Shown one piece after another: positions 5,534-17,820 of a DNA stretch of 64,000 nucleotides. Origin of the DNA: Actinoalloteichus hoggarensis (GTDB lineage Bacteria; Actinomycetota; Actinomycetes; Mycobacteriales; Pseudonocardiaceae); NCBI RefSeq assembly GCF_002234535.1, contig NZ_CP022521.1, positions 2,480,001-2,544,000 on the forward strand, given 5' to 3'. Position numbers and translations under genes: made by a program. The notes under the pieces are model-generated. The model worked only from the letters and a program-made list of their open reading frames with translations. It was not told the origin of the DNA and did no database searches. The number at the start of each line of letters is the position of its first letter. The first letter of the stretch is position 1.

Positions 5534-5779
5534 CCCTGTCGGCGGCCGCGTGCTCGAGTTCGGGCCGGTCCGCCCTGGCCGGACGTGGCAGGCGTGGGCA
5601 CGACGGGGTGCCCTGACGCCGTCCCGCCCGGGTCGACGAGGCTCGACGCGATCGGCCCGGGCCGACGCGGACGGCGGCCGGTGCCTCGATGACAGGCGCC
5701 CGGTGATCCGGGCGGGCAGGCGGCCCGGGACCGACACGAATCGCGTTCCGCGCCTGTCCGGACGCCCGGGCGCGGGTGC

Positions 5780-6262
5780 TCAGTCGTGCCCGGCGGGTAC
5801 CCGGATCGTCGGCACGTGCCGAACCGGGAAGTTCACCGAGTTGGCGATGAAGCACACCTCGTGTGCCCGTCGATGCAACGCCGTCGCCTCGGTCACCATG
5901 GACTCGCTCGCCACGGTGACCAGTGGCGCCAGGATCACCTCGGTGAACCGCCCCCGAGTGCGGGCGGACTCGTGCAGCAGCCCGCGTGCGGAGTCCTCGT
6001 ACGCCACCACCACGACCCGGCCGAGCGAGCACAGCGCGAGATAACTCAGCATGTGGCACTGGGACAGCGCGCCGAGGAGGAGCTGTTCGGGGTTCCACCG
6101 GCTCGCGTCGCCCACGAAGGCCGGGTCGGCGCTGCCCTCGATGATCGGCAGACCCGCCGACGCGAGGTCGTGCGACCGCTCGTAGGAGCGATACCCGGAC
6201 GTGCCCGTCCCGGTGTTCCCACGCCAGGACACCGTCACCTCGTAGTGGTGCTCGCGGGTCAT
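5780..6262 (-). CDS. OsmC family protein
   Basis: 160 residues from ATG 6262, preceded on the minus strand by GGGAGAAGG. The protein has the OsmC/Ohr outline: an N-terminal beta region, then W-N-P-E-Q-L-L-L-G-A-L-S-Q-C-H-M, which carries the first redox Cys, and a C-terminal strand and helix (H-E-V-C-F-I-A-N-S-V-N-F-P-V) carrying the second Cys. OsmC-type proteins reduce organic hydroperoxides with these two cysteines. It converges on the ALDH homologue and lies downstream of a TetR gene on the same strand, which may control it. Confident family call; the exact peroxide substrate cannot be read from sequence. Confidence 0.88.
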   Translation of the reverse strand: MTREHHYEVTVSWRGNTGTGTSGYRSYERSHDLASAGLPIIEGSADPAFVGDASRWNPEQLLLGALSQCHMLSYLALCSLGRVVVVAYEDSARGLLHESARTRGRFTEVILAPLVTVASESMVTEATALHRRAHEVCFIANSVNFPVRHVPTIRVPAGHD

Positions 6263-6568
6263 GCGACTCGCCCTTCTCCCGACAGCTCTCTCCCGGGCAT
6301 CCTGCCGGTCGGCCCCGGCCGGTGCGGGCGAGGTGGCCACCCGCCGCGGCCTGTCGTCCTCGGCGCCGCGGCCTCCTCCGCGCCGTGCGTGCGTCGGCCC
6401 GCGTGGTCGGCGTGTCTCGTTCCGCGCAGGCGGACTCGGCGGGCGGTCGTCGGACGCCGTGAACTCCGGCGCTGTCCGCCACGAGGTCGACGGCGAACCT
6501 CGTCGACGTGTCGCCGTCGACGTCGGGCCGGCCGTCGTACGCCGTATCCGATCGCCCGCCCGGGTCGA

Positions 6569-7126
6569 TCAGGCGGGCCGTCGGGCATCGGCGATCGCGA
6601 GCGCCAGGGTGACCAGGCGGTCGACCTGGTCGACCTCGTCGGGCAGTTCGAGCAGGACGTGGTGCAGCTGGGCGTCGAGCGCGTGCACGAGCGTCGCGGC
6701 CGTCACGGTCGCGTCCTCGGCTCCCCGGTCACATCGGCGCAGATGCCCGGCCACCTCGGCGATCAGGCGCTCGGTCAGCGTCTGCAGCCTCGCGAGGCCC
6801 TCCGGGACCCTCGGAGAGTTCTGGTGCATCAGCGCGTGCAGTCGGGGCCGGTCACGATGCAGCGCGGCGATCTCGGTCGCGAGCACGGTCATCGTGTCGA
6901 CGAACGGAGGCTCCCGGCGGCGGAGATCGGCGCACACGGCGTCCAGACGGGCGGCGAGCGAATCGATGTGGCGCAGGGTCAGGGCGTAGAGCAGGGCCTG
7001 CTTGTTCGGGAAGTACTGGTACACGGTTCCGATGGACACGCCGGCCCGGTCGGCGATGTGGTTGGTCGTCGCGGCCAGGCCGTCACGGTCGAAAAGCTGA
7101 GCAGCGGCCTCCAGGATGAAGGCCAC
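6569..7126 (-). CDS. TetR family transcriptional regulator
   Basis: 185 residues from GTG 7126. An N-terminal helix-turn-helix (about 5-45) shows the family signature A-A-Q-L-F-D-R-D-G-L and G-V-S-I-G-T-V-Y-Q-Y-F-P-N-K. The C-terminal ligand domain is Leu/Ala-rich. The frame is open for at least 30 codons upstream and encodes R-Q-Q-R-S-R-E-T before the GTG, the usual N-terminal arm of TetR proteins, but no ATG, GTG or TTG occurs there. Translation may therefore start at a rare ATT/ATC codon, or the arm is lost. It is divergent from the alpha/beta hydrolase gene across about 100 bases; either that gene or osmC is a plausible target. Confidence 0.85.
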   Translation of the reverse strand: MAFILEAAAQLFDRDGLAATTNHIADRAGVSIGTVYQYFPNKQALLYALTLRHIDSLAARLDAVCADLRRREPPFVDTMTVLATEIAALHRDRPRLHALMHQNSPRVPEGLARLQTLTERLIAEVAGHLRRCDRGAEDATVTAATLVHALDAQLHHVLLELPDEVDQVDRLVTLALAIADARRPA

Positions 7127-7226
7127 CGTCTCCCGAGAGCGCTGTTGACGGGGTGTTCTGCGGGGCTCGGCGATGATCTGTCCAATGCGAGTTGTCGGGG
7201 CGTCCGCCGCGTCGAAGACTAGCGGT

Positions 7227-8165
7227 GTGCATGACGACTACCTGGCATTACTGCCCGAGGAGCTACGCCCCCGCCCGCTGCCCGCCCGTCGCTCCACCTG
7301 GTGGCGGTGGCGCGACATGGACGTCCACATCGAGCGGGTGGGCGAATCGGACGCACCTCGTCGTGCGCTGCTGTTGCACGGCGCGGGCGGCAACGCGGCG
7401 GCGATGTGGCCGGTGGCGGCTCAGCTCGCCGGGCACGGCGTCGAACTGATCGTCCCGGACCTGCCCGGCTTCGGCCGGACCCGTGCTCCTCGGCGTGGCG
7501 CGCTGCGCCTTGCGCACTGGATCGACCTGGCCTGCGACCTGCTGCGGGCCGAGCGTCGCGACGACGCGCGACCGCTGACGCTGATCGGCGCCAGCATGAG
7601 CGGGATGATCGCCTACGAGGTCGCCGCACGGACCGGTCTCGCCGACCGGGTCGTCGTCACCTGCCTGGTGGACCCGCGCGACGCCCGTGTGCGGCGGAAG
7701 GCGGCTCGATACCCGTGGCTGGGCGCCGTCGCGAGGCCCGTGCTGCGGTGGGCGGCGGGTCCGCTCGCCGGAGTCGAGATGCCGCTGCGTCTGCTGGTGA
7801 ACATGCGGAAGATGAGCAACGTCCCGGCGCTGGTCGACCTGGTCCTTCGGGATCGCCGAGGCGGCGGCAACCGGATGCCGCTCGGCTTCGTGCGCAGTTT
7901 CCTGGACGCGGTCCCCAGCGTGGAGCCGGAGCGATTCACCGCCTGCGAGATCGTCTTGGCGCATCCGGCCGCGGACGGCTGGACCCCGGTGGAGATCAGC
8001 CTGCCGTTCTTCGACCGGATCGCGGGCCCGCGGCGACTGGTGATGCTGCCGGACGCCGGGCACTTCCCCATCGAGGCCGCCGGGATGCGGACTCTCGTGG
8101 AACTGCTCGCCGAGGGCCGCCGACCCGGCGAGTCCGGTGGGGGCCGGGCGAGCGCACGGCCATGA
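7227..8165 (+). CDS. Alpha/beta hydrolase
   Basis: 312 residues from GTG 7227. The alpha/beta hydrolase order is clear: oxyanion motif L-L-L-H-G-A-G-G near 48-55, P-D-L-P-G-F-G near 77-83, nucleophile elbow G-A-S-M-S-G with Ser123, and the late D-A-G-H-F-P motif with His near 278. The elbow is G-x-S-x-S rather than the usual G-x-S-x-G. A possible promoter, TTGTCG (7192-7197), 17 bases, AAGACT (7215-7220), would place transcription at the GTG, giving a leaderless message. An in-frame ATG lies at 7173. The gene is divergent from the TetR gene and could be its target. Substrate unknown. Confidence 0.85.
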   Translation: MHDDYLALLPEELRPRPLPARRSTWWRWRDMDVHIERVGESDAPRRALLLHGAGGNAAAMWPVAAQLAGHGVELIVPDLPGFGRTRAPRRGALRLAHWIDLACDLLRAERRDDARPLTLIGASMSGMIAYEVAARTGLADRVVVTCLVDPRDARVRRKAARYPWLGAVARPVLRWAAGPLAGVEMPLRLLVNMRKMSNVPALVDLVLRDRRGGGNRMPLGFVRSFLDAVPSVEPERFTACEIVLAHPAADGWTPVEISLPFFDRIAGPRRLVMLPDAGHFPIEAAGMRTLVELLAEGRRPGESGGGRASARP

Positions 8166-8465: not shown

Positions 8466-9875
8466 TCAGCCGCCCGCGATCACCGGGCGGCGGCCCTGCC
8501 ACGGCCGTGCCGTCTCGAAGGCCCGACAGGCCGCCAGGACGGCCGCGTCGGCATGTCGAGGCCCGACCACCTGCATGCCGACGGGCAGTCCGGCACGGGT
8601 GAAGCCACACGGCACGGTGGCGGCGGGCTGCTGAGTCATGTTGAAGGGGTAGGTGAACCGAGTCCAGCTGGTCCACCTCGGCTCGCTCGACCCGACGGGC
8701 GACTCCCGACCGGCCTCGAACGCGGGGATGGGCATCGTGGGGGTCACCAGCAGGTCGTAGCGCTCGTGGAACCGGCCCATCAACGCGCCGAGGGCGGCAC
8801 GCGCGGCGTTGGCGGTGAGATAGTCCAGCGCCGAGTACCCCGCGCCCTGCTCGGCGATCTCCCGCAGCCCCGGATCGAGCTCCGCGCGCTGTCGATCCGT
8901 CAACGTCTCCAGGGATTTCGCCGCTCCGGCGAACCACAGCGTGTGGAACTCCTCCACCGGGTCGGCGAAGCCGGGGTCGACCCGCTCGACGGTGGCGCCC
9001 AGTTCGGTGAACACCTCGACCGCCGCCGCGACCCGCATCGCGACCTCCTCGTCCACCTCGACGTAGCCGAGATCCGGACTGAAGGCGATTCGCAGACCCC
9101 GCACGCCCGCGTCGAGGGTCTCGGTGAAGGGCGTCGCCGGAGCGGGCAGGGCCGACCAGTCTCGAGGGTCGGGGACCGCGACCGCGTCGAGCAGCAGCGC
9201 GGCGTCGGCGACCGTCCTGGTCATCGGGCCGACGTGGGCCAGGGTGCCGAACGGGCTGCTCGGGAAGTGTGAGATCAGGCCGTAGGTGGGCTTCAGGGCG
9301 AAGACTCCGCAGAAGCTGCCGGGGATGCGCACCGATCCGCCGCCGTCGGTGCCCAGCGTCAGCGGCGCCATGCCCAGCGCCACGGCCGCCGCGCCGCCGC
9401 CGCTGGAACCGCCCGCCGTCCTACTGGTGTCCCAGGGGTTGCGGGTGACGCCGGTCAGCGGACCGTCGGTGACGCCCTTCCACGCCAGCTCCGGCGTGGT
9501 GGTCTTGCCGACGAACACCGCGCCCTGTTCCCGCAGCCGGGCCACCGACGGTCCGTCGGCGTCCCAGGGCTGCGAGACGTCGGTCGAGCGTGACCCCCGC
9601 ATGGTCGGCCAGCCCTTGGTGAGCAGCACGTCCTTGATGGAGACCGGGATGCCGTCGAGCGGACCCCGTACCGCTCCCCGGCGCAGCCGATCGGTGGCCG
9701 CGTCGGCCGCCGCCAGCGTCGTCTCCTGGTCGAGCAGGCAGAAGGCGTTGACCTCCCCGTCGAGCCGGTCGATCCTGGCGAGCACCGCCTCGGCCGCCTC
9801 GCGAGGCGTCGTCTCGCCCCGATCGTAGGCGGCCCGCAACTCCACTGCCGTCGACTCCGCCAGGTCGTCGCCCAC
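8466..9875 (-). CDS. Amidase signature family amidase
   Basis: 469 residues from GTG 9875, which has AGGAGG five bases upstream; an in-frame ATG at 9899 is less well placed. The Ser-cisSer-Lys triad of this family is complete: Lys81 in P-V-S-I-K-D, the cis-Ser in G-G-S-S-G-G near 158, and nucleophile Ser181 in D-G-G-G-S-V-R-I-P. The enzyme hydrolyses a carboxamide to acid and ammonia; the substrate cannot be read off. It is followed on the same strand by no gene and preceded by a D-2-hydroxyacid dehydrogenase gene 56 bases away, so the two probably share the operator-controlled promoter near 11 kb. Confidence 0.92.
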   Translation of the reverse strand: MGDDLAESTAVELRAAYDRGETTPREAAEAVLARIDRLDGEVNAFCLLDQETTLAAADAATDRLRRGAVRGPLDGIPVSIKDVLLTKGWPTMRGSRSTDVSQPWDADGPSVARLREQGAVFVGKTTTPELAWKGVTDGPLTGVTRNPWDTSRTAGGSSGGGAAAVALGMAPLTLGTDGGGSVRIPGSFCGVFALKPTYGLISHFPSSPFGTLAHVGPMTRTVADAALLLDAVAVPDPRDWSALPAPATPFTETLDAGVRGLRIAFSPDLGYVEVDEEVAMRVAAAVEVFTELGATVERVDPGFADPVEEFHTLWFAGAAKSLETLTDRQRAELDPGLREIAEQGAGYSALDYLTANAARAALGALMGRFHERYDLLVTPTMPIPAFEAGRESPVGSSEPRWTSWTRFTYPFNMTQQPAATVPCGFTRAGLPVGMQVVGPRHADAAVLAACRAFETARPWQGRRPVIAGG

Positions 9876-9931
9876 CGTTGCCTCCTCGTCCTCGCACATC
9901 GTCGGTCCAGGCCCGCCCCGGCGGGCGGTGG

Positions 9932-10912
9932 TCAGGTGGTGCTGACGTAGCCCCTGGTCTTGTCGACCACGTTCTCCAACGCCTCGTCCGCGCGGTACCG
10001 ACGAAGGTTGGCCAGGAAGAGCGCGAGCAGTTCGGCGCGCCAGCCCACGACGTCGCCGGACATGTGCGGCGAGATGATCACTCCCGGCAGGGTCCACAGC
10101 GGAGAATCCGGGTCGAGCGGCTCCGAGGCCACGACGTCGAGGGCCGCTCCGGCGAGTTCGCCCGACCGCAGCGCCTCGACCAGGGCCTCCTCGTCGACCA
10201 GCGCGCCCCGGCCGACGTTGATGAAGCGTGCCTCGGGCCGCATCGCGGCCAGGGCGGCGGCGTCGATCATGCCTCGGGTGGACGGGGTGAGCGGGGCAGC
10301 GCAGACGACGAAGTCGGCGTGGGGCAGCGCGGTGAGCAGGTCCTCGGCGGCGTGCACTCGCCCGAGGTCCGGATCGTCCGCGCGTTCCCGGCGGCCCACG
10401 CCCTCGACGTGCAGGCCCGCGGCCCGCAGCAGCCTGCCGGTGGCTCGCCCGATGGGACCGGTCCCGATGACCAGCGCCCGGCGCCCCGCGACGCGCTCGG
10501 TCTCGCGATGCTGCCATCGGCGTTCCCGATGCAGGTCGACGGTGGTGTGGAGGTCCTTGGCGTAGGTCAGGACGAGCCCGAGGACGTACTCGGCGATCGG
10601 CTGGTCGAAGACGCCGCGCGAGTTGGTGAGCGTGATGCCGGGGTCCTCCAGCAGTGCGGGGAAGAGGAGCCGGTCGACGCCCGCGCTCGCGGTGTGCACC
10701 CAGCGCAGGGAGTCGACCCCGTGCCAGGCACGCTCGACGGCTCCGGAGGAGAAGTCCCAGGCCAGCAGTACGTCGGCGCCGCGGAGCGCCTCCGCCAGCT
10801 CGTCGGCGACGGCGGGCCGGACCTCGGCGAGATCGTCGAGTTCGGTCGACGGCGGCAGGACGTCGACGCCGTCGTGCAGGACGGCGACGACCGGGCGGGC
10901 GAGTGGCGACAT
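9932..10912 (-). CDS. D-isomer-specific 2-hydroxyacid dehydrogenase
   Basis: 326 residues from ATG 10912 (GGAG upstream). The family layout is complete: a Rossmann nucleotide-binding motif V-I-G-T-G-P-I-G-R (148-156) and catalytic Arg235 (V-G-R-G), Glu264 (A-S-E-P) and His283 (S-P-H-M). It interconverts a 2-oxoacid and a D-2-hydroxyacid using NAD(P). It is first in a two-gene minus-strand unit with the amidase. A promoter TTGACA (minus, 11003-11008), 17 bases, TAGCGT (10980-10985) reads into it, and its -35 box lies inside the GATTGTCAACAATC operator, so control by the local GntR regulator is likely. Confidence 0.92.
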   Translation of the reverse strand: MSPLARPVVAVLHDGVDVLPPSTELDDLAEVRPAVADELAEALRGADVLLAWDFSSGAVERAWHGVDSLRWVHTASAGVDRLLFPALLEDPGITLTNSRGVFDQPIAEYVLGLVLTYAKDLHTTVDLHRERRWQHRETERVAGRRALVIGTGPIGRATGRLLRAAGLHVEGVGRRERADDPDLGRVHAAEDLLTALPHADFVVCAAPLTPSTRGMIDAAALAAMRPEARFINVGRGALVDEEALVEALRSGELAGAALDVVASEPLDPDSPLWTLPGVIISPHMSGDVVGWRAELLALFLANLRRYRADEALENVVDKTRGYVSTT

Positions 10913-10974: not shown

Positions 10975-11013
10975 TTGACACGCTAGGAAGCTCTCGTAGG
11001 ATTGTCAACAATC
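10975..11013. promoter_or_regulatory. Overlapping divergent promoters with GntR-type operator (copy 1)
   Basis: Plus strand: TTGACA (10975-10980), 16 bases, TAGGAT (10997-11002), reading to the DUF3830 gene. Minus strand: TTGACA (11003-11008), 17 bases, TAGCGT (10980-10985), reading to the dehydrogenase and amidase. The dyad GATTGTCAACAATC (11000-11013) covers the plus -10 and the minus -35, so one bound repressor would block both. The same dyad recurs near 12.45 and 16.54 kb. GT-N2-AC spacing fits the FadR/FCD branch of GntR regulators. Confidence 0.75.
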
Positions 11014-11142
11014 CGCATGGTGCTCGCGGGTGCCGTCGATCCGGCGGCCGGAGAACACCGGCCGAGTTCGGCGACCACGACGCCGGCGAGAACCGACCGG
11101 AGCGGCACCGCGCCCCTCCCGACCGCCGAAAGGGTCCCTGCG

Positions 11143-11637
11143 ATGACTCGTCATATCCAGATCGAGCTCACCAAGCGCGGCGTGTCCTGTGTGGCCGAAC
11201 TGCTGGACAAGGACGCCCCGTTGACCTGCGAGGCCGTCTGGCAGGCCCTGCCCCAGGGCGGCGACGTCTATCACGCGAAGTACGCGCGCAACGAGGTCTA
11301 CACGATGGTGCCGCGTTTCGCGGAGGTGCCGCCCGGCCTGGAGAACCCGACCGTCACTCCCATTCCCGGCGACGTCATGTACTTCGACTTCGCGGGTGGG
11401 ATGCTGGACCGCCGGTTCAAGGAGGAGAAGGACATCCACGAGCTCCCCGGCGTGATCGACCTGGCGATCTTCTACGGGCGCAACAACCTGCTGCTCAACG
11501 GCGACGTGGGCTGGGTGCCCGGCAACGTCTACGCCACCATCGTCGAGGGCCTGGACGAGATGGCCGAGGCATGCCACGACGTGTGGCGGTCCGGGGCGGT
11601 CGGAGAGCGCCTCGTCTACCGCAGGCACGCGGAGTGA
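11143..11637 (+). CDS. DUF3830 (cyclophilin-like fold) protein
   Basis: 164 residues from ATG 11143, preceded by AAAGGG. The sequence has the pattern of the DUF3830 family: an opening beta strand (I-Q-I-E-L-T), A-P-L-T-C-E-A-V-W-Q-A-L-P near 25-40, Y-A-R-N-E-V-Y, G-D-V-M-Y-F-D-F and F-Y-G-R-N-N. The family is assigned a cyclophilin-like beta barrel; no biochemical role is established that I know of. It is the first gene of the plus-strand arm of the operator-controlled locus and is followed 42 bases later by a maleate-isomerase-like gene, suggesting a step in the same catabolic route. A TTG within the operator is not a credible start. Confidence 0.8.
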   Translation: MTRHIQIELTKRGVSCVAELLDKDAPLTCEAVWQALPQGGDVYHAKYARNEVYTMVPRFAEVPPGLENPTVTPIPGDVMYFDFAGGMLDRRFKEEKDIHELPGVIDLAIFYGRNNLLLNGDVGWVPGNVYATIVEGLDEMAEACHDVWRSGAVGERLVYRRHAE

Positions 11638-11679
11638 GTCGGGGCGCGGACTGAGAGGCCGCGGGACGCCGAGGGCGCC

Positions 11680-12438
11680 ATGGTGCTCGAGACTCTCGGG
11701 ACGGTCGACGGCCCGTACCCGGACGACGGGATCGGCATCGTCGCACCGTTCGACTTCGCGCTCGATCGTGAGCTGTGGCGCTGGGTGCCGGATCAGGTCA
11801 CCCTGCACATGACCAGGGTTCCCTATGTCCCGGTGCCGGTCACCGTGGAGATGGCGACCATGATCAGTGACGAGCAGGCGGTGCACGGGGCGACCCGGGA
11901 CCTGCTCACTCCGGAGCCCAAGGTGGTGGCCTACGCCTGCACCTCGGGCAGCTTCGTCAACGGCTCCCTGGGGGAGCACGCGCTGACCACGATCATGCTG
12001 GAGGCCGGGGCACCCGCCGCCGTCACGACCTCCGGCGCCCTCGTCGAGGCGCTGCGCGTGCTCGGCGTGGGCAAGGTGGCGATCGCCACCCCGTATATCG
12101 GGCCGATCAACGACCGGTTGATCGGCTTCCTCGGCGAGTACGACATCGAGGCCGTGTCCTGCCAGGGCCTCGGGCTGCTCAACCAGATCTGGAAGGTGTC
12201 CTACCAGGAGGTCATGGAGATCGTGCGCGCGGCGGACCGCCCCGATGCGGACGCGATGTTCGTGAGCTGCACGAACCTGCCCACCTACGACATCATCCCG
12301 CTGCTGGAGCGGGCATTGGGCAAACCGGTCCTCACCGCGAACCAGGTGACCATGTGGGGCGCGTTGCGCCTGCTCAATCGGGAGTCGCTCGCCGTGGACC
12401 AGCGTCTCTTCCAACAGGCGCGCCTCCCTGCGGCCTGA
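11680..12438 (+). CDS. Maleate isomerase-like protein (Asp/Glu racemase superfamily), two-cysteine form
   Basis: 252 residues from ATG 11680 (GAGGG upstream). It has the two-lobed Asp/Glu racemase superfamily pattern with both active-site cysteines: Cys87 in Y-A-C-T-S-G-S and Cys197 in V-S-C-T-N-L. Two cysteines are used by maleate cis-trans isomerase and Asp/Glu racemases; arylmalonate decarboxylases keep only one. The C-terminal K-P-V-L-T-A-N-Q motif is typical. A paralogue follows 53 bases downstream with only the first cysteine. Maleate-like isomerisation is the best guess, but hydantoin racemase or ectoine-utilisation EutA-like activity is possible. Confidence 0.82.
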   Translation: MVLETLGTVDGPYPDDGIGIVAPFDFALDRELWRWVPDQVTLHMTRVPYVPVPVTVEMATMISDEQAVHGATRDLLTPEPKVVAYACTSGSFVNGSLGEHALTTIMLEAGAPAAVTTSGALVEALRVLGVGKVAIATPYIGPINDRLIGFLGEYDIEAVSCQGLGLLNQIWKVSYQEVMEIVRAADRPDADAMFVSCTNLPTYDIIPLLERALGKPVLTANQVTMWGALRLLNRESLAVDQRLFQQARLPAA

Positions 12439-12446
12439 TTCGGTAG

Positions 12447-12460
12447 GATTGTCGACAATC
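12447..12460 (+). promoter_or_regulatory. GntR-type operator (copy 2)
   Basis: Perfect dyad GATTGTCGACAATC starting nine bases after the stop codon of the first isomerase gene. As at copy 1 it is preceded by GTAG, so TAGGAT (12444-12449) could serve as a -10 box, but no good -35 is seen. It would give internal, repressible expression of the second isomerase and the GntR gene. Confidence 0.75.
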
Positions 12461-12490
12461 GGCCCGACGGGGTCGAGGACGGAGGCACGG

Positions 12491-13213
12491 GTGACCGTGA
12501 CGGTGGGGTTTCTGTACCCGGGCTACAGCGCCGAGGACGACTACCCGACGCTGGAGGGCCTGATCGGCGACGGCGTGCGACTGCCGCTGGTCCACACCGA
12601 GATGCGCGAGGACGCCCATCGCGTCGACGCACTGCTCGACATCGGCGGCGACGACGTGTTGGCCGAGGGGGCCGCCGCCCTGCGTGATCACGCGGTCGAC
12701 GCGGTGGTGTGGGCCTGTACCAGCGGCAGCTTCGTCTTCGGCTGGGACGGCGCGACGCGCCAGGTGGAGCGGCTCGCCGAGGCCGCGGGCGTGCCCGCGT
12801 CCAGCACCTCCTTCGCCTTCGTCCGGGCGCTGCGGGAACTCGGTCTGCGCCGAGTCGCGGTCGCGGCGACCTATCCGGCGGACGTCGCGGGCCGCTTCGC
12901 GGGCTTCCTGGCGCGCGACGGCGTGGAGGTCGTGTCGCTGGCCAGTCGGGGCATCGTGACCGCGGCGGAGGTGGGCACGCTCACCCGAGCCGACGTGCTC
13001 GACTTCGTCGCCGGACATGACCACCCCGCCGCCGAGGCCGTGCTCGTCCCGGACACCGCCCTGCACACCGCGATGCTGCTCGACGATCTCACGGAGCGAC
13101 TGGGTAAACCGGTGCTGACCGCCAATCAGGTGAGCGTGTGGGAGGGTCTTCGCCTGGTGGGCCGGACGGCGTCCCGAGGCCTGGGCGTGTTGTCCGGCCG
13201 GAGAACGGAGTGA
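12491..13213 (+). CDS. Maleate isomerase/arylmalonate decarboxylase-like paralogue, one-cysteine form
   Basis: 240 residues from GTG 12491, with GGAGG six bases upstream. It aligns by eye with the previous protein throughout (W-A-C-T-S-G-S-F, then K-P-V-L-T-A-N-Q-V-S-V-W). Cys76 is kept, but the position of the second catalytic Cys is Asp188 (V-P-D-T-A). Loss of one cysteine abolishes two-base isomerase chemistry in this superfamily, and single-cysteine members include decarboxylases, though there it is the other cysteine that remains. The pair may be subunits of one enzyme or catalyse successive steps. Its stop lies four bases before the GntR start. Confidence 0.8.
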   Translation: MTVTVGFLYPGYSAEDDYPTLEGLIGDGVRLPLVHTEMREDAHRVDALLDIGGDDVLAEGAAALRDHAVDAVVWACTSGSFVFGWDGATRQVERLAEAAGVPASSTSFAFVRALRELGLRRVAVAATYPADVAGRFAGFLARDGVEVVSLASRGIVTAAEVGTLTRADVLDFVAGHDHPAAEAVLVPDTALHTAMLLDDLTERLGKPVLTANQVSVWEGLRLVGRTASRGLGVLSGRRTE

Positions 13214-13216
13214 CAG

Positions 13217-13897
13217 ATGGTGACCGTCGACACCCATCCGACGAGTAGCGGCCTGGCGCCGCTGACCAGGAGATCGACCGCCGAGATCGTCGCGGAACAG
13301 CTGCGTACCGCGATCACGCGGGGCGAGCTGCCCCCAGGTGGTCAACTCGGGGAGATCGACCTGGCGAACCGGCTCGGGGTGAGTCGGGGACCGCTGCGCG
13401 AGGCGATGCAGCGACTGGTGCAGGAGGGCCTGTTGCGCAGCGAGCCGCATCGAGGACTGTTCGTCATCGACCTCGACGACGATGACGTGCGGGACATCTA
13501 TCGGGCCCGGTCGGCCATCGAGAGCGCCGCGTGCAGACGAATCATGGAAGGGGATCGGGCCGTCGCGGTCTCTCGGCTGCGGGACGCGCACGCCCTGATG
13601 GCCTCGGCCGCCGCCTCGGCGGACGCCGACGCGCTCGCCGACGCCGACCATTACTTCCACCAGACACTCGTGTCGGCGTCGGGCAGTCCCCGACTGGAGC
13701 GGATGGCCGAGACGCTGCTGGTAGAGACCCGCATGTGCCTGCTGGCCCTACAGGGTACGACCCGCCATTCCGGGGACACCATCGACGAGCATCGCGGCCT
13801 GGTCGACGCCATCGAGGCGGGCGACGAGGAACTGCTGCTGAGCAGCCTGGAGGCGCACATGAGCGAGGCCGTGGACCGGCTGACGCGGCACCGCTGA
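13217..13897 (+). CDS. GntR family regulator, FadR/FCD subfamily
   Basis: 226 residues from ATG 13217, with GGAG upstream inside the end of the preceding gene. An N-terminal winged helix (about 15-80) carries E-I-V-A-E-Q-L-R and L-G-V-S-R-G-P-L-R-E-A. The C-terminal FCD domain has the metal-ligand pattern Asp-x3-His (D-H-Y-F-H region), then a His in D-E-H-R-G-L and a His in E-A-H-M. It is translationally linked to the second isomerase, downstream of operator copy 2, so it is probably autoregulated. The three GATTGTCNACAATC sites in this locus are the natural targets; the inducer is likely a pathway acid. Confidence 0.9.
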   Translation: MVTVDTHPTSSGLAPLTRRSTAEIVAEQLRTAITRGELPPGGQLGEIDLANRLGVSRGPLREAMQRLVQEGLLRSEPHRGLFVIDLDDDDVRDIYRARSAIESAACRRIMEGDRAVAVSRLRDAHALMASAAASADADALADADHYFHQTLVSASGSPRLERMAETLLVETRMCLLALQGTTRHSGDTIDEHRGLVDAIEAGDEELLLSSLEAHMSEAVDRLTRHR

Positions 13898-14131
13898 CCT
13901 CACGCGGACGGCCCGGCGCCGCTGATCCCGTGTCGCCCGAGCCCGACGGGCTCGTGGTGTTCGGCCCGGTGTCGACCACCGCATGGCCGGACACCGGCGC
14001 GTCGGGCGTCGAGGCCCGCCGACCGGCTCCGGAGGGAGCCCGCCCGGGGCCACGGCCGAGGGCGTCCGTCCGTGCCGGGCGTCGTCGACGCCGTGACCGT
14101 CGTCGTCTCGCGTCGGCGGGAGGCGCGGAAG

Positions 14132-14944
14132 ATGCGCGGGGATACCGTGCGAGTGCGTGAAGAACTTCTGCCGGGTGGTCTCGTCACCGACGTCGTCCGC
14201 GTCGGCGACACGGTACGCAGGCCCGGGCCCGATGCCGAGTTCGCCCACGAGCTGTCGCGCGATCCGGAAGGACGGGGCTGGACGGGCGCCCCGCGATTCC
14301 TCGGGTTCGACGAGCGGGGTCGCGAGACGCTGACCGTCATCGAGGGCCACGTCCCCTGGGCCACGCCGCACGAGGACGCGGTCGTGACGGACGGGAGTCT
14401 CGCCTCGCTCGCTCGGCTCGTTCGGACGTTCCACGACCTCACCGCGGGCACTCCGGCCGCCGGGGGCGCCGAGGTCGTCTGCCATCACGATCTCGCGCCC
14501 CGGAACACGGTGTATCGCGATCTCGGCGCGGGACTCCGCCCGGCGGCCCTGCTCGACTGGGACCTGGCCGCGCCGGGGGCTCGGATGGACGACCTCGCGC
14601 ACGTGTGCTGGCAGTACCTCGGTCTGGGACCTTCCGTCATGGATCTGGCCGAGACGACACGCCGGATGCGTCTGCTCTGCGACGCCTACGGCCCGATCGA
14701 CCGGAGCGCGCTCGTGAGAACGGTCCTGCGGCGGCAGGACTCCTGCGTCTCGGGGATCGTCTCGGCCGCCGAGGCCGGAGATCCTGCGATGCGGCGACTG
14801 CGCGACCTCGGCGTCGTCGAGTCCGTCGCGGCCGCCCGCGACTGGGTGCGAGACCATCGGTCGACGCTGGAGGCCGGTCTCGTTCCGCCCGCGACAGACG
14901 CGGTCCGGGGTGCCCAGAGCGACGCCGACGGGACGGACGAGGCC
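14132..14944 (+). CDS. Aminoglycoside/choline-type phosphotransferase (3' end unresolved)
   Basis: Start ATG 14132 with GGGAGG eight bases upstream. About 260 residues show the APH/choline-kinase C-lobe: catalytic H-H-D-L-A-P-R-N (Asp and Asn of the HxDxxxxN loop) and the metal-binding L-L-D-W-D motif. The N-lobe is short. The homologous region ends near 14880, but no in-frame stop appears until 16523-16525, after the frame has run antisense through the whole dehydrogenase gene. A strong hairpin at 14945-14976 interrupts the frame, so I end the feature there. Either the message is cut by termination without a stop codon, or a frameshift or sequence error hides the true end. Substrate unknown. 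Confidence 0.6.
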
Positions 14945-14976
14945 GCCGGGCGGTTCCGCCGACGAAACCGCCCGGC
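14945..14976. terminator. Hairpin terminator between convergent genes
   Basis: Perfect 11-bp stem GCCGGGCGGTT / AACCGCCCGGC (14945-14955 and 14966-14976) with a 10-base loop, 23 bases from the stop of the minus-strand dehydrogenase. It can act on both strands; on the minus strand it follows the dehydrogenase stop. Confidence 0.8.
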
Positions 14977-14998
14977 GTCGGGCCGCGGACGAGCCGCG

Positions 14999-16468
14999 TC
15001 AGGTCGCGATGGCGACCAGCTTGGTCTCCAGGAACTCGTCGATGCCGGTGCTGCCGCCCTCACGTCCGAGGCCAGAGGCCTTCACTCCGCCGAAGGGCGC
15101 CGCCGGGTTGGAGACGATGCCCTGGTTGAGGCCGACCATGCCGGTCTCCAGGCCTTCCGACATCCGCAGGCCGCGCCCCAGGTCTGTGGTGAACACGTAG
15201 CTGACCAGCCCGTACTCGGTGTCGTTGGCCAGATCCAGTGCCTCCTGCTCCGTCTGGAAGACGCTGATCGGGGCGACCGGGCCGAAGATCTCCTCGGTGG
15301 CCATCCGCGCGTCCGTCGGGACGCCGGTGAGCACGGTGGGGGAGTAGAAGTATCCGCCGTCGTAGCCCTCGCCGGAGGGAGCCTCGCCGCCGATGACGAC
15401 CGTCGCGCCCCGACCGACCGCGTCCGAGACCAGCTCGGTGACCTTCTTCCTGGCCTTGGCGTCGATCAGCGGTCCCACCTGGACGCCCTCCTTGACACCG
15501 TGGCCGACGCGCAGCGACCCCATGCGCTCGGCGAGTCGCCTGCCGAACTCCTCGGCGATCCCGGCCTGGGCGTAGATGCGATTGGCCGCCGTGCAGGCCT
15601 CGCCCATGTTGCGCATCTTGGCCAGCATCGCGCCGTCCACGGCCTTGTCCAGGTCGGCGTCGTCGAAGACGATGAACGGGGCGTTGCCACCGAGCTCCAT
15701 CGACACACGCAGGACCTGTTCGGCGGACTGCTCGATGAGACTGCGGCCGACGGCGGTCGAGCCGGTGAAGGAGAGCTTGCGTGCTCGGCCGTCACGGATC
15801 AGCGGCTCCATCAGTTCGCCTGCCCCCATGGCGGGCACCACGTTGAGGACGCCGTCGGGAAGTCCCGCCTCGCGCAGGATCTCCGCGAGCGCCAGCATCG
15901 ACAGCGGCGTCTGGTGCGCCGGCTTGATCACGCTGGTGCAGCCCGCCGCGATCGCGGGTCCGATCTTGCGGGTGCCCATCGCCATCGGGAAGTTCCACGG
16001 CGTGACGAACAGACAGGGGCCGACCGGCTGGCGCATCACCAGGAAGCGGCCCGTGCCGTTCGGCGCGACCTGGTATCCGCCGTCGATCCGCACGGCCTCT
16101 TCGGAGAACCAGCGGAAGAACTCGGCGGCGTAGGTGATCTCCGCGCGGGAGTCCGCCAGCGGTTTGCCCATCTCCGAGGTCATCAGCAGGGCGAGGTCGT
16201 CGATGCGCGCGGTCAGCAGTTCGAAGGCGCGGCGCAGGATCTCGCCGCGTTCCCTGGGGGGATGCGCGGCCCACGCGGGCTGCGCCGCCACGGCGGCGTC
16301 CAGCGCGGCGACGCCGTCGGCGGGGGAGGCGTCGGCGACCGAGCACAGCACCTCGCCGGTGGCCGGATCGTCGACGTCGAAGGTCCGGCCACCCGAGGCG
16401 GGCACCCAGCCGCCTCCGATGAACAGTTCCTTCGGAGTGTTCTTCAGGACCGTCTCGACGCTGGTCAT
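14999..16468 (-). CDS. gabD: NAD(P)-dependent succinate-semialdehyde dehydrogenase-like enzyme
   Basis: 489 residues from ATG 16468, the usual GabD length. All catalytic elements are present: T-P-W-N-F-P (oxyanion Asn), F-T-G-S-T-A-V-G-R cofactor loop, M-E-L-G-G-N (general base Glu) and G-E-A-C-T-A-A-N-R (nucleophile Cys). It oxidises a short dicarboxylic semialdehyde, most likely succinate semialdehyde, to the acid. It is divergent from a class III aminotransferase gene, with the GATTGTCGACAATC operator between them. The pair matches the aminotransferase plus semialdehyde dehydrogenase step of GABA-like amino acid catabolism. Contrast the degenerate ALDH homologue at 4.1 kb. Confidence 0.9.
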   Translation of the reverse strand: MTSVETVLKNTPKELFIGGGWVPASGGRTFDVDDPATGEVLCSVADASPADGVAALDAAVAAQPAWAAHPPRERGEILRRAFELLTARIDDLALLMTSEMGKPLADSRAEITYAAEFFRWFSEEAVRIDGGYQVAPNGTGRFLVMRQPVGPCLFVTPWNFPMAMGTRKIGPAIAAGCTSVIKPAHQTPLSMLALAEILREAGLPDGVLNVVPAMGAGELMEPLIRDGRARKLSFTGSTAVGRSLIEQSAEQVLRVSMELGGNAPFIVFDDADLDKAVDGAMLAKMRNMGEACTAANRIYAQAGIAEEFGRRLAERMGSLRVGHGVKEGVQVGPLIDAKARKKVTELVSDAVGRGATVVIGGEAPSGEGYDGGYFYSPTVLTGVPTDARMATEEIFGPVAPISVFQTEQEALDLANDTEYGLVSYVFTTDLGRGLRMSEGLETGMVGLNQGIVSNPAAPFGGVKASGLGREGGSTGIDEFLETKLVAIAT

Positions 16469-16533
16469 GCCGGAAACCCTCCCGGGGTAGGTGTGGACAC
16501 GCGACCACGGTCGATGGTTGCATGAGGGCGATA

Positions 16534-16547
16534 GATTGTCGACAATC
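16534..16547. promoter_or_regulatory. GntR-type operator (copy 3)
   Basis: Perfect dyad GATTGTCGACAATC between the divergent dehydrogenase and aminotransferase genes. The flank GTAGGAT seen at copies 1 and 2 is here on the minus strand, pointing toward the dehydrogenase, while TAGATT (16532-16537) could be a plus-strand -10. One site could control both genes. Confidence 0.8.
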
Positions 16548-16566
16548 CTACAGTCGAGGAGTGATC

Positions 16567-17820
16567 ATGGCTCAGTTGTCGCCACTGCTCAAGCAGGCAA
16601 CTCCGGTGCAGGTCGCCCGAGGAGAGGGCGTCTATCTCTATGACCACGACGGTAGGCGCTATCTCGACTTCACCGCCGGAATCGGCGTCACGAGCACGGG
16701 ACACTGCCATCCGAAGGTCGTCGCGGCCGCGCAGCAGCAGGTCGCCACGCTGATCCACGGCCAGTACACCACCGTCATGCACCAGCCGCTGCTCACGTTG
16801 ACCGAACGGCTGAGCGAGGTGCTCCCCGCCGGGTTGGACTCGCTGTTCTACGTCAACTCCGGAAGCGAGGCGGTGGAGGCGGCCCTGCGTCTCTCCCGCC
16901 AGTCGACCGGCAGGCAGAACGTGGTGGTGTTCCAGGGCTCCTTCCACGGTCGAACCTTCGGTGCCGCGTCGCTGACGACCTCGGGAACCAAGATCCGCGC
17001 AGGCATCGGACCGCTCGTTCCCGGCGTCACCGTGGCACCGTTCCCCTACGCCTACCGCTACGGATGGTCCGAAAAGGAGGCCGTCGACTTCGCACTGCGG
17101 GAACTCGACTATCTCCTCGTCACCGCCGCCCCCGCCGCCGACATCGCCGCGTTCTTCGTCGAGCCCGTCCTCGGCGAGGGCGGCTACGTCCCCGCCCCGC
17201 CCGGGTTCCTCGCCGGGCTGCGGGAACGCGCCGACCGGCACGGGATCCTGCTCGTGTTCGACGAGGTGCAGACCGGCTTCGGGCGGACCGGCGAGTTCTG
17301 GGGACATCAGCACTTCGACGTCGAGCCCGACATCCTGATCACCGCCAAGGGGCTGGCCAGCGGCTTCCCGCTGTCCGCGATCGCCGCGAGCACCGAGCTG
17401 ATGAGCCGAGGCCTGCCGGGCTCGCAGGGCGGAACCTACGGCGGCAACGCCGTGGCCTGCGCTGCGGCCGTGGCGACCCTGGACGTCATCCTGGAGGAGG
17501 GACTCGTCGAGAACGCGGCTCGGACCGGCGAGCGGCTGCTGGCCGGTTCCCGCCGGATCGCGGCCGATTACGCGGCCGTCGGCGATGTGCGCGGGCTGGG
17601 GCTGATGGTGGCCTCCGAGTTCGTGAACCCGGACGGCTCGCCCGCTCCAGAGATCGCGAACCGAGTGCATCGGACGGCGGCGGACCTCGGTCTGCTGCTG
17701 CTGACCTGTGGTCCGCACGGCAACGTGGTGCGGATGATCCCGCCGCTGGTCGTCGACGAGGCACAGATCGATCAAGGCCTCGAACTCTGGGCGAAGGCGG
17801 TGTCCTCCGGACTGGGCTGA
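16567..17820 (+). CDS. Class III aminotransferase (4-aminobutyrate aminotransferase type)
   Basis: 417 residues from ATG 16567, with GAGGAG five bases upstream. Class III fold-type I features: N-S-G-S-E-A-V-E-A-A near 96-105, the F-H-G-R-T phosphate/ring region, D-E-V-Q-T-G-F-G with the PLP-pyridine Asp, and the Schiff-base Lys in T-A-K-G-L-A-S-G-F-P. It transfers the terminal amino group of an omega-amino acid, probably GABA or a relative, to 2-oxoglutarate or pyruvate, giving a semialdehyde for the divergent dehydrogenase. The operator lies about 20 bases upstream of the ATG. Exact substrate among omega-amino acids is not determined by these motifs. Confidence 0.88.
   Translation: MAQLSPLLKQATPVQVARGEGVYLYDHDGRRYLDFTAGIGVTSTGHCHPKVVAAAQQQVATLIHGQYTTVMHQPLLTLTERLSEVLPAGLDSLFYVNSGSEAVEAALRLSRQSTGRQNVVVFQGSFHGRTFGAASLTTSGTKIRAGIGPLVPGVTVAPFPYAYRYGWSEKEAVDFALRELDYLLVTAAPAADIAAFFVEPVLGEGGYVPAPPGFLAGLRERADRHGILLVFDEVQTGFGRTGEFWGHQHFDVEPDILITAKGLASGFPLSAIAASTELMSRGLPGSQGGTYGGNAVACAAAVATLDVILEEGLVENAARTGERLLAGSRRIAADYAAVGDVRGLGLMVASEFVNPDGSPAPEIANRVHRTAADLGLLLLTCGPHGNVVRMIPPLVVDEAQIDQGLELWAKAVSSGLG

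Follow-up and report, generated by a model that had tools for sequence, protein, structure and literature searches.

The window analysed here, a 64,000-nucleotide stretch of the Actinoalloteichus hoggarensis genome (contig NZ_CP022521.1, positions 2,480,001 to 2,544,000), carries a cluster of genes in the order amidase (-), D-2-hydroxyacid dehydrogenase (-), operator 1, DUF3830 (+), isomerase-like 1 (+), operator 2, isomerase-like 2 (+), FCD-type GntR regulator (+), APH-like gene, aldehyde dehydrogenase (-), operator 3 and class-III aminotransferase (+). The GntR protein is, with high probability, the repressor of a catabolic regulon made up of these enzymes, apart from the APH-like one, acting through the palindrome GATTGTCNACAATC at promoters that overlap it. 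The palindrome is very probably a genuine operator, to judge from its rarity, its conservation and its association with this GntR gene.

The 14-mer GATTGTCNACAATC occurs at three places of the window (Table 1), exactly where the original prediction had put it, and no fourth place appears in the 64 kb at up to two mismatches. At this tolerance 100 dinucleotide shuffles of the window gave a mean of 0.34 matches and a maximum of 2, against 6 observed. The whole-genome scan called for by the original prediction returned three exact copies in 6,606,717 bases, all at the locus and not the many unrelated copies that it had named as a possible refutation; the reversed control pattern gave 0, and 0.012 exact copies are expected genome-wide if letters are taken as independent and identically distributed at the GC content of the window (71.8%). 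The TTGT and ACAA boxes are present at the sites, the search pattern itself having demanded them. Each copy had been placed at the start of a transcription unit, which agrees with sites 1 and 3, found in gaps between divergent genes; site 2 lies in a 52-base gap separating two same-strand genes, so the start there would be an internal promoter. The predicted GTAG flank does precede every copy in one orientation, on the plus strand at sites 1 and 2 and on the minus strand at site 3.

The distribution of the motif follows that of the regulator. Among 150 genomes of the family Pseudonocardiaceae, with GntR orthologs called at E <= 1e-40, DUF3830 is found in 85, the GntR ortholog in 93 and the exact 14-mer in 95, while none has DUF3830 without the GntR gene. 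Motif and GntR ortholog occur together in 87 genomes, the motif alone in 8, the ortholog alone in 6 and neither in 49 (14 discordant genomes; Fisher P 3e-24, uncorrected for kinship). The six GntR-only genomes all belong to one genus, and in the one fetched (G038, L179) the site before gntR is one base off the pattern. Moreover, in 40 family loci fetched around DUF3830 at least one core site (TTGTCNACAA) was found in every case; together with the window they yielded 37 rows for operator 1, 30 for operator 2, 35 for operator 3 and one unclassified. The aminotransferase gene is missing from six of the 40 loci and lies there on another contig (L160-L165, reached via the list of motif places), with a match of 69-75% identity and the exact 14-mer no more than 150 nt upstream.

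A wider set of 80 named loci (1.53 Mb in all), the best of at least 526 relatives retrieved by a scan with the DUF3830 alignment, covers Actinoalloteichus, Saccharopolyspora, Pseudonocardia, Amycolatopsis, Actinophytocola, Actinomadura, Nocardiopsis and other genera, besides one Alkalicoccus. The core site is present in 79 of them, and for 192 of the 193 core sites a match to one of five core genes follows downstream within 450 nt. A GntR gene of at least 50% identity lies inside 76 of the 80 loci. Among the remaining four, L124 and L151 carry the gene elsewhere in the genome, and in L152 the contig ends soon after isomerase 2; the fourth is the site-less Alkalicoccus locus (L156), whose genome lacks the exact 14-mer and has a best GntR match only 29% identical. 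About 370 kb separate gntR of Amycolatopsis xylanica from the DUF3830 operon, which has its own site; the 800 bases before this gntR hold two 14-mers. In Pseudonocardia spinosispora a second DUF3830 copy also has a site; the sites thus appear to travel with relocated genes. As far as comparison of genome sequences can tell, then, the conserved site, the gene set and their link to this GntR gene hold across relatives, and the motif does mark the genes that had been named from the window alone.

The same comparison reveals a conserved promoter register. In the gap between the dehydrogenase and DUF3830 genes, all 91 loci with a single operator show TTGACA-N16-TANNNT rightward and TTGACA-N17-TANNNT leftward, with a TANNNT background of 0.08%. 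Positions 3-5 of the -10 hexamer vary (TAGGAT, TATGAT, TAACAT, TAAGAT), while TA...T is invariant at operators 1 and 2. The GTAG flank is therefore best read as a part of the -10 hexamer, which would account for its recurrence. Likewise, the operator centre is CA in 91 of 91 rows at operator 1, since the leftward -35 TTGACA occupies the operator there, and is mixed at operators 2 and 3.

Nineteen named loci, of which 13 are titled Nocardiopsis, have two operators in this gap, and here the two promoters seem to have separated. On the dehydrogenase side, the operator copy retains both leftward hexamers, -35 and -10 (19/19 each), and has an exact rightward TTGACA in 0/19. On the DUF3830 side, the copy retains the rightward -10 (19/19) and has lost the leftward one (0/19); its -35 is weaker, starting with TTG in all 19, mostly at N18, with 17 of 19 scoring four of six as against 9% at random positions. 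These loci offer a natural dissection of the shared operator.

The regulon had been described as self-contained. This is true for the exact 14-mer only, and the regulon as a whole probably reaches further: the exact 12-mer occurs at one more genomic place, a conserved site about 1 Mb away (G000:C1:1483669; L074, about 5669-7597), before a gene resembling Glu/Leu/Phe/Val dehydrogenases that is followed by an ectoine-synthase-like gene. The distal dehydrogenase occurs in 74 of the 150 family genomes, every one with the GntR ortholog. Among the 70 of these 74 loci examined, 20 loci from seven genera have the distal site, all within the 30 closest by identity, where it is absent from 10; a site before the dehydrogenase as a general feature was rejected, 20/30 closest loci having it against 0/40 more distant ones. 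In 20/20 loci this operator overlaps a -35, its TTGACA being followed by 18 bases and then TANNNT. A census of the exact 12-mer in 22 genomes, the 20 with the distal site and two of Actinoalloteichus type without the dehydrogenase, gave 95 distinct places by hand count: 65 in the local locus, 20 before the dehydrogenase and 10 elsewhere. In 13 of the 22 there are exactly three local sites and the dehydrogenase site, with no others. In the four of the ten extra places that were inspected no recurring gene was seen, in the course of an inspection not aimed at finding one, and one (L257) lies inside a coding frame. In the A. hoggarensis genome itself, five places with one mismatch to the 12-mer have neither a core site nor a core gene around them. 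The distal site, too, is probably served by this GntR protein.

From a structural perspective, the single GntR gene of the locus was correctly assigned to the FCD type: the N-terminal winged helix (PF00392, 62.2 bits) and the C-terminal FCD domain (PF07729, 80.9 bits) both score above gathering. No NCBIfam regulator model reaches its cut-off, the best being TIGR03338 (128.5 bits, cut-off 271.5). D144, H148, H192 and H214, which may correspond to the Asp and three His ligands of metal-type FCD domains, are invariant in 14 aligned orthologs. According to PMC4494728, operators of the FadR subfamily follow the consensus TKGT/ACMA with a box spacing of 3 nt in most groups and 2 nt in several. The sites studied here have TKGT/ACMA boxes with a 2-nt centre, so that the suggestion that GT-N2-AC spacing suits the FCD subfamily stands, as the less common of its spacings. 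In a helix-turn-helix (HTH) alignment anchored on Arg38/Arg42/Glu43, the HTH positions listed in Table 1 of that paper, this protein has Ile28 and Pro40, and the K of TKGT is here T; the paper ties Arg28 and Ser40 to G/C at that position, with Pro40 avoiding G/C. Compared by class features and not group by group, the system resembles FCD (FadR-subfamily) regulators in its winged helix and FCD domain, its TKGT/ACMA boxes with a 2-nt centre, a single operator in a divergent gap and the local position of its genes.

From these comparisons we infer binding, repression and not activation, the operon structure, an inducer and the catabolic role, which can be put together as follows. A dimer of the GntR protein would bind GATTGTCNACAATC at the three local places and probably at the distal one. 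An operator that overlaps core promoter hexamers is in the usual position for a repressor, and the bound protein would here exclude RNA polymerase. Operator 1 would cover both the -10 of the promoter of the DUF3830-isomerase-isomerase-gntR string and the -35 of the opposing dehydrogenase-amidase promoter; by spanning the two, one dimer would silence both directions, and the protein would restrain its own production. Operator 2 would govern an added internal promoter for isomerase 2 and gntR, and operator 3 the aldehyde dehydrogenase and the aminotransferase. A metabolite, perhaps a carboxylate, would release the protein by binding at the FCD domain.

Several observations weigh against this picture, in whole or in part. 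The 91 single-operator loci are not independent, comprising 79 distinct 104-mers, and the family and named sets share species. At operator 3 a -10 is in register in only 22/35 rows toward the aldehyde dehydrogenase and in 3/35 toward the aminotransferase, and in five family loci (L062-L066) the aminotransferase has no adjoining aldehyde dehydrogenase, which makes the latter a variable member of the regulon. In the two-operator loci the dehydrogenase-side copy still has the TANNNT flank in 16/19 and a five-of-six rightward -35 in 4/19, so that the protein, too, may depend on the flank; on the DUF3830 side, TTGACA at N16 occurs in 1/19 only. At two mismatches the 12-mer gives 94 matches per strand genome-wide versus 44 for the reversed control. 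Finally, the exact 14-mer is present in eight family genomes that have no GntR match at the ortholog threshold, and in the six of these that were fetched (L172-L177) no core gene was found in their 13 kb; other regulators probably use a similar sign.

The direction of control is read from sequence, and the GntR protein could activate these genes, or both activate and repress, instead of being a plain repressor. FCD activators do exist, as with CitO, described as inducing the cit genes (abstract of PMC4746285); CitO, however, binds upstream of its promoters according to the same source, whereas here the overlap is with core promoter hexamers, at operators 1 and 2 as well as at the distal site, and we consider this alternative unlikely. 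Less probable still is the idea that the palindrome belongs to a different regulator encoded at a distance, with the neighbouring GntR gene a bystander. The eight GntR-negative genomes speak for it, as do five loci with the distal dehydrogenase site where no GntR homologue was found in the 20 kb fetched; against it, the motif occurs in 87/93 genomes with the ortholog versus 8/57 without, and the gene lies inside nearly all named loci, the few exceptions being those described above. Least probable of all is that the conserved blocks are promoter alone with no repressor bound: the site does include -10 and -35 hexamers, which could be conserved for RNA polymerase only, but the ten-base palindrome is kept where just a part of it can serve a promoter (for example at operator 2 and in the DUF3830-side copies that have lost the leftward -10), and it co-occurs with the GntR gene.

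As a separate observation, three genomes of a single genus that lack this GntR ortholog (L175, position 6316; L176, 6593; L177, 6541) share the context ACACAAGATTGTCAACAATC around the 14-mer, which suggests that a different regulator uses a similar sign there.

As regards the enzymes, both isomerase-like proteins match PF17645 and solved chains of arylmalonate decarboxylase (AMDase); they remain below the curated AMDase cut-off, and against the EutA model TIGR02990 (cut-off 318) they reach 109.2 and 102.1 bits. Their catalytic pair is Cys/Cys in protein 1 (31/31) and Cys/Asp in protein 2 (38/38 covered), whereas AMDase has Gly74 and Cys188. According to PMC4996985, none of 58 putative AMDases has Cys at position 74, and protein 2 resembles the engineered Cys-swapped AMDase of that work. 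The DUF3830 protein belongs to the same family as PDB 3kop (E 5e-61), a chain labelled uncharacterised. The amidase, which falls outside the coordinates of the original prediction, is on the same strand as the D-2-hydroxyacid dehydrogenase and downstream of it. Taken together, the genes suggest that an amide or omega-amino acid is broken down to a dicarboxylate. In a search of the 80 named loci for a conserved transporter, no non-core gene family was found inside the locus in four or more of them; those non-core families that recur lie in the flanks and are tied to particular lineages. Individual relatives possess an AEC-type carrier (L063, L064 and L149 by Pfam; L136 by an NCBIfam match below cut-off), a sugar-type ABC transporter (L117) or an MHS-like symporter in the flank (L048, below cut-off), and L072 has a tartrate-dehydrogenase gene, a GlcD-like flavin adenine dinucleotide (FAD) oxidase and a thiamine pyrophosphate (TPP) enzyme. 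As the conserved core holds no transporter, no substrate is named.

Two further features of the locus deserve mention. The APH-like phosphotransferase gene (14132-14905, between gntR and the aldehyde dehydrogenase gene) was rejected as a regulon member, as there is no room for it in two genomes of the same genus, where the gap is 302 and 87 bases. To the left of operator 3, at about 16516-16525 in the aldehyde dehydrogenase leader, GGTTGCATG is found in 21 of the 35 operator-3 rows and could represent a short upstream reading frame or the site of another protein.

Table 1. Genes, operators and predicted promoter hexamers of the locus (positions in the window).
Feature	Positions	Strand	Remarks
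Amidase	8466..9899	-	PF01425
D-2-hydroxyacid dehydrogenase	9932..10912	-	PF02826
-35 hexamer TTGACA, rightward (DUF3830) promoter	10975..10980	+	in register in 91/91 single-operator loci
-10 hexamer TAGCGT, leftward promoter	10980..10985	-	TANNNT 91/91
-10 hexamer TAGGAT, rightward promoter	10997..11002	+	overlaps operator 1; holds most of GTAG flank; TANNNT 91/91
Operator 1, GATTGTCAACAATC	11000..11013	.	between D-2-hydroxyacid dehydrogenase and DUF3830 genes; exact match, conserved in relatives
-35 hexamer TTGACA, leftward (D-2-hydroxyacid dehydrogenase) promoter	11003..11008	-	inside operator 1; 91/91
DUF3830 protein	11143..11637	+	PF12903; relative of PDB 3kop
Isomerase-like protein 1	11680..12438	+	arylmalonate decarboxylase / EutA / maleate isomerase family; Cys/Cys
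-10 hexamer TAGGAT	12444..12449	+	overlaps operator 2; TANNNT in 30/30 family rows
Operator 2, GATTGTCGACAATC	12447..12460	.	before second isomerase-like gene; exact match, conserved in relatives
Isomerase-like protein 2	12491..13213	+	arylmalonate decarboxylase / EutA / maleate isomerase family; Cys/Asp
FCD-type GntR regulator	13217..13897	+	last gene of DUF3830 string
Aldehyde dehydrogenase	14999..16468	-	succinate-semialdehyde-dehydrogenase-like
Operator 3, GATTGTCGACAATC	16534..16547	.	between aldehyde dehydrogenase and aminotransferase genes; exact match, conserved in relatives
-10 hexamer TAGGAT, toward aldehyde dehydrogenase	16545..16550	-	overlaps operator 3; TANNNT in register in 22/35 rows
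Class-III aminotransferase	16567..17820	+	

In kind the system appears ordinary, an FCD GntR regulon of probably catabolic genes, distinguished by strong comparative support and a strict overlap of promoter and operator. No literature on DUF3830 was found in the open-licence literature, and no description of the locus, operator, gene set or regulon among the open-licence matches listed (titles and abstract openings), in line with the earlier view that the regulon is undescribed. With somewhat less than even confidence we propose, as its novelty, an interlocked divergent switch, in which one operator is part of a -10 region and an opposing -35, kept in register across several actinobacterial genera and guarding an undescribed catabolic pathway of DUF3830, Cys/Cys and natural Cys/Asp proteins of the arylmalonate-decarboxylase family, an amidase and a class-III aminotransferase; in one group of genera the regulon would have taken in a distal amino-acid dehydrogenase as well. 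Unnamed enzymes, DUF3830 among them, would thereby become a defined set, probably co-regulated in many actinobacteria, so that their substrate could be hunted through the compound that releases one repressor.

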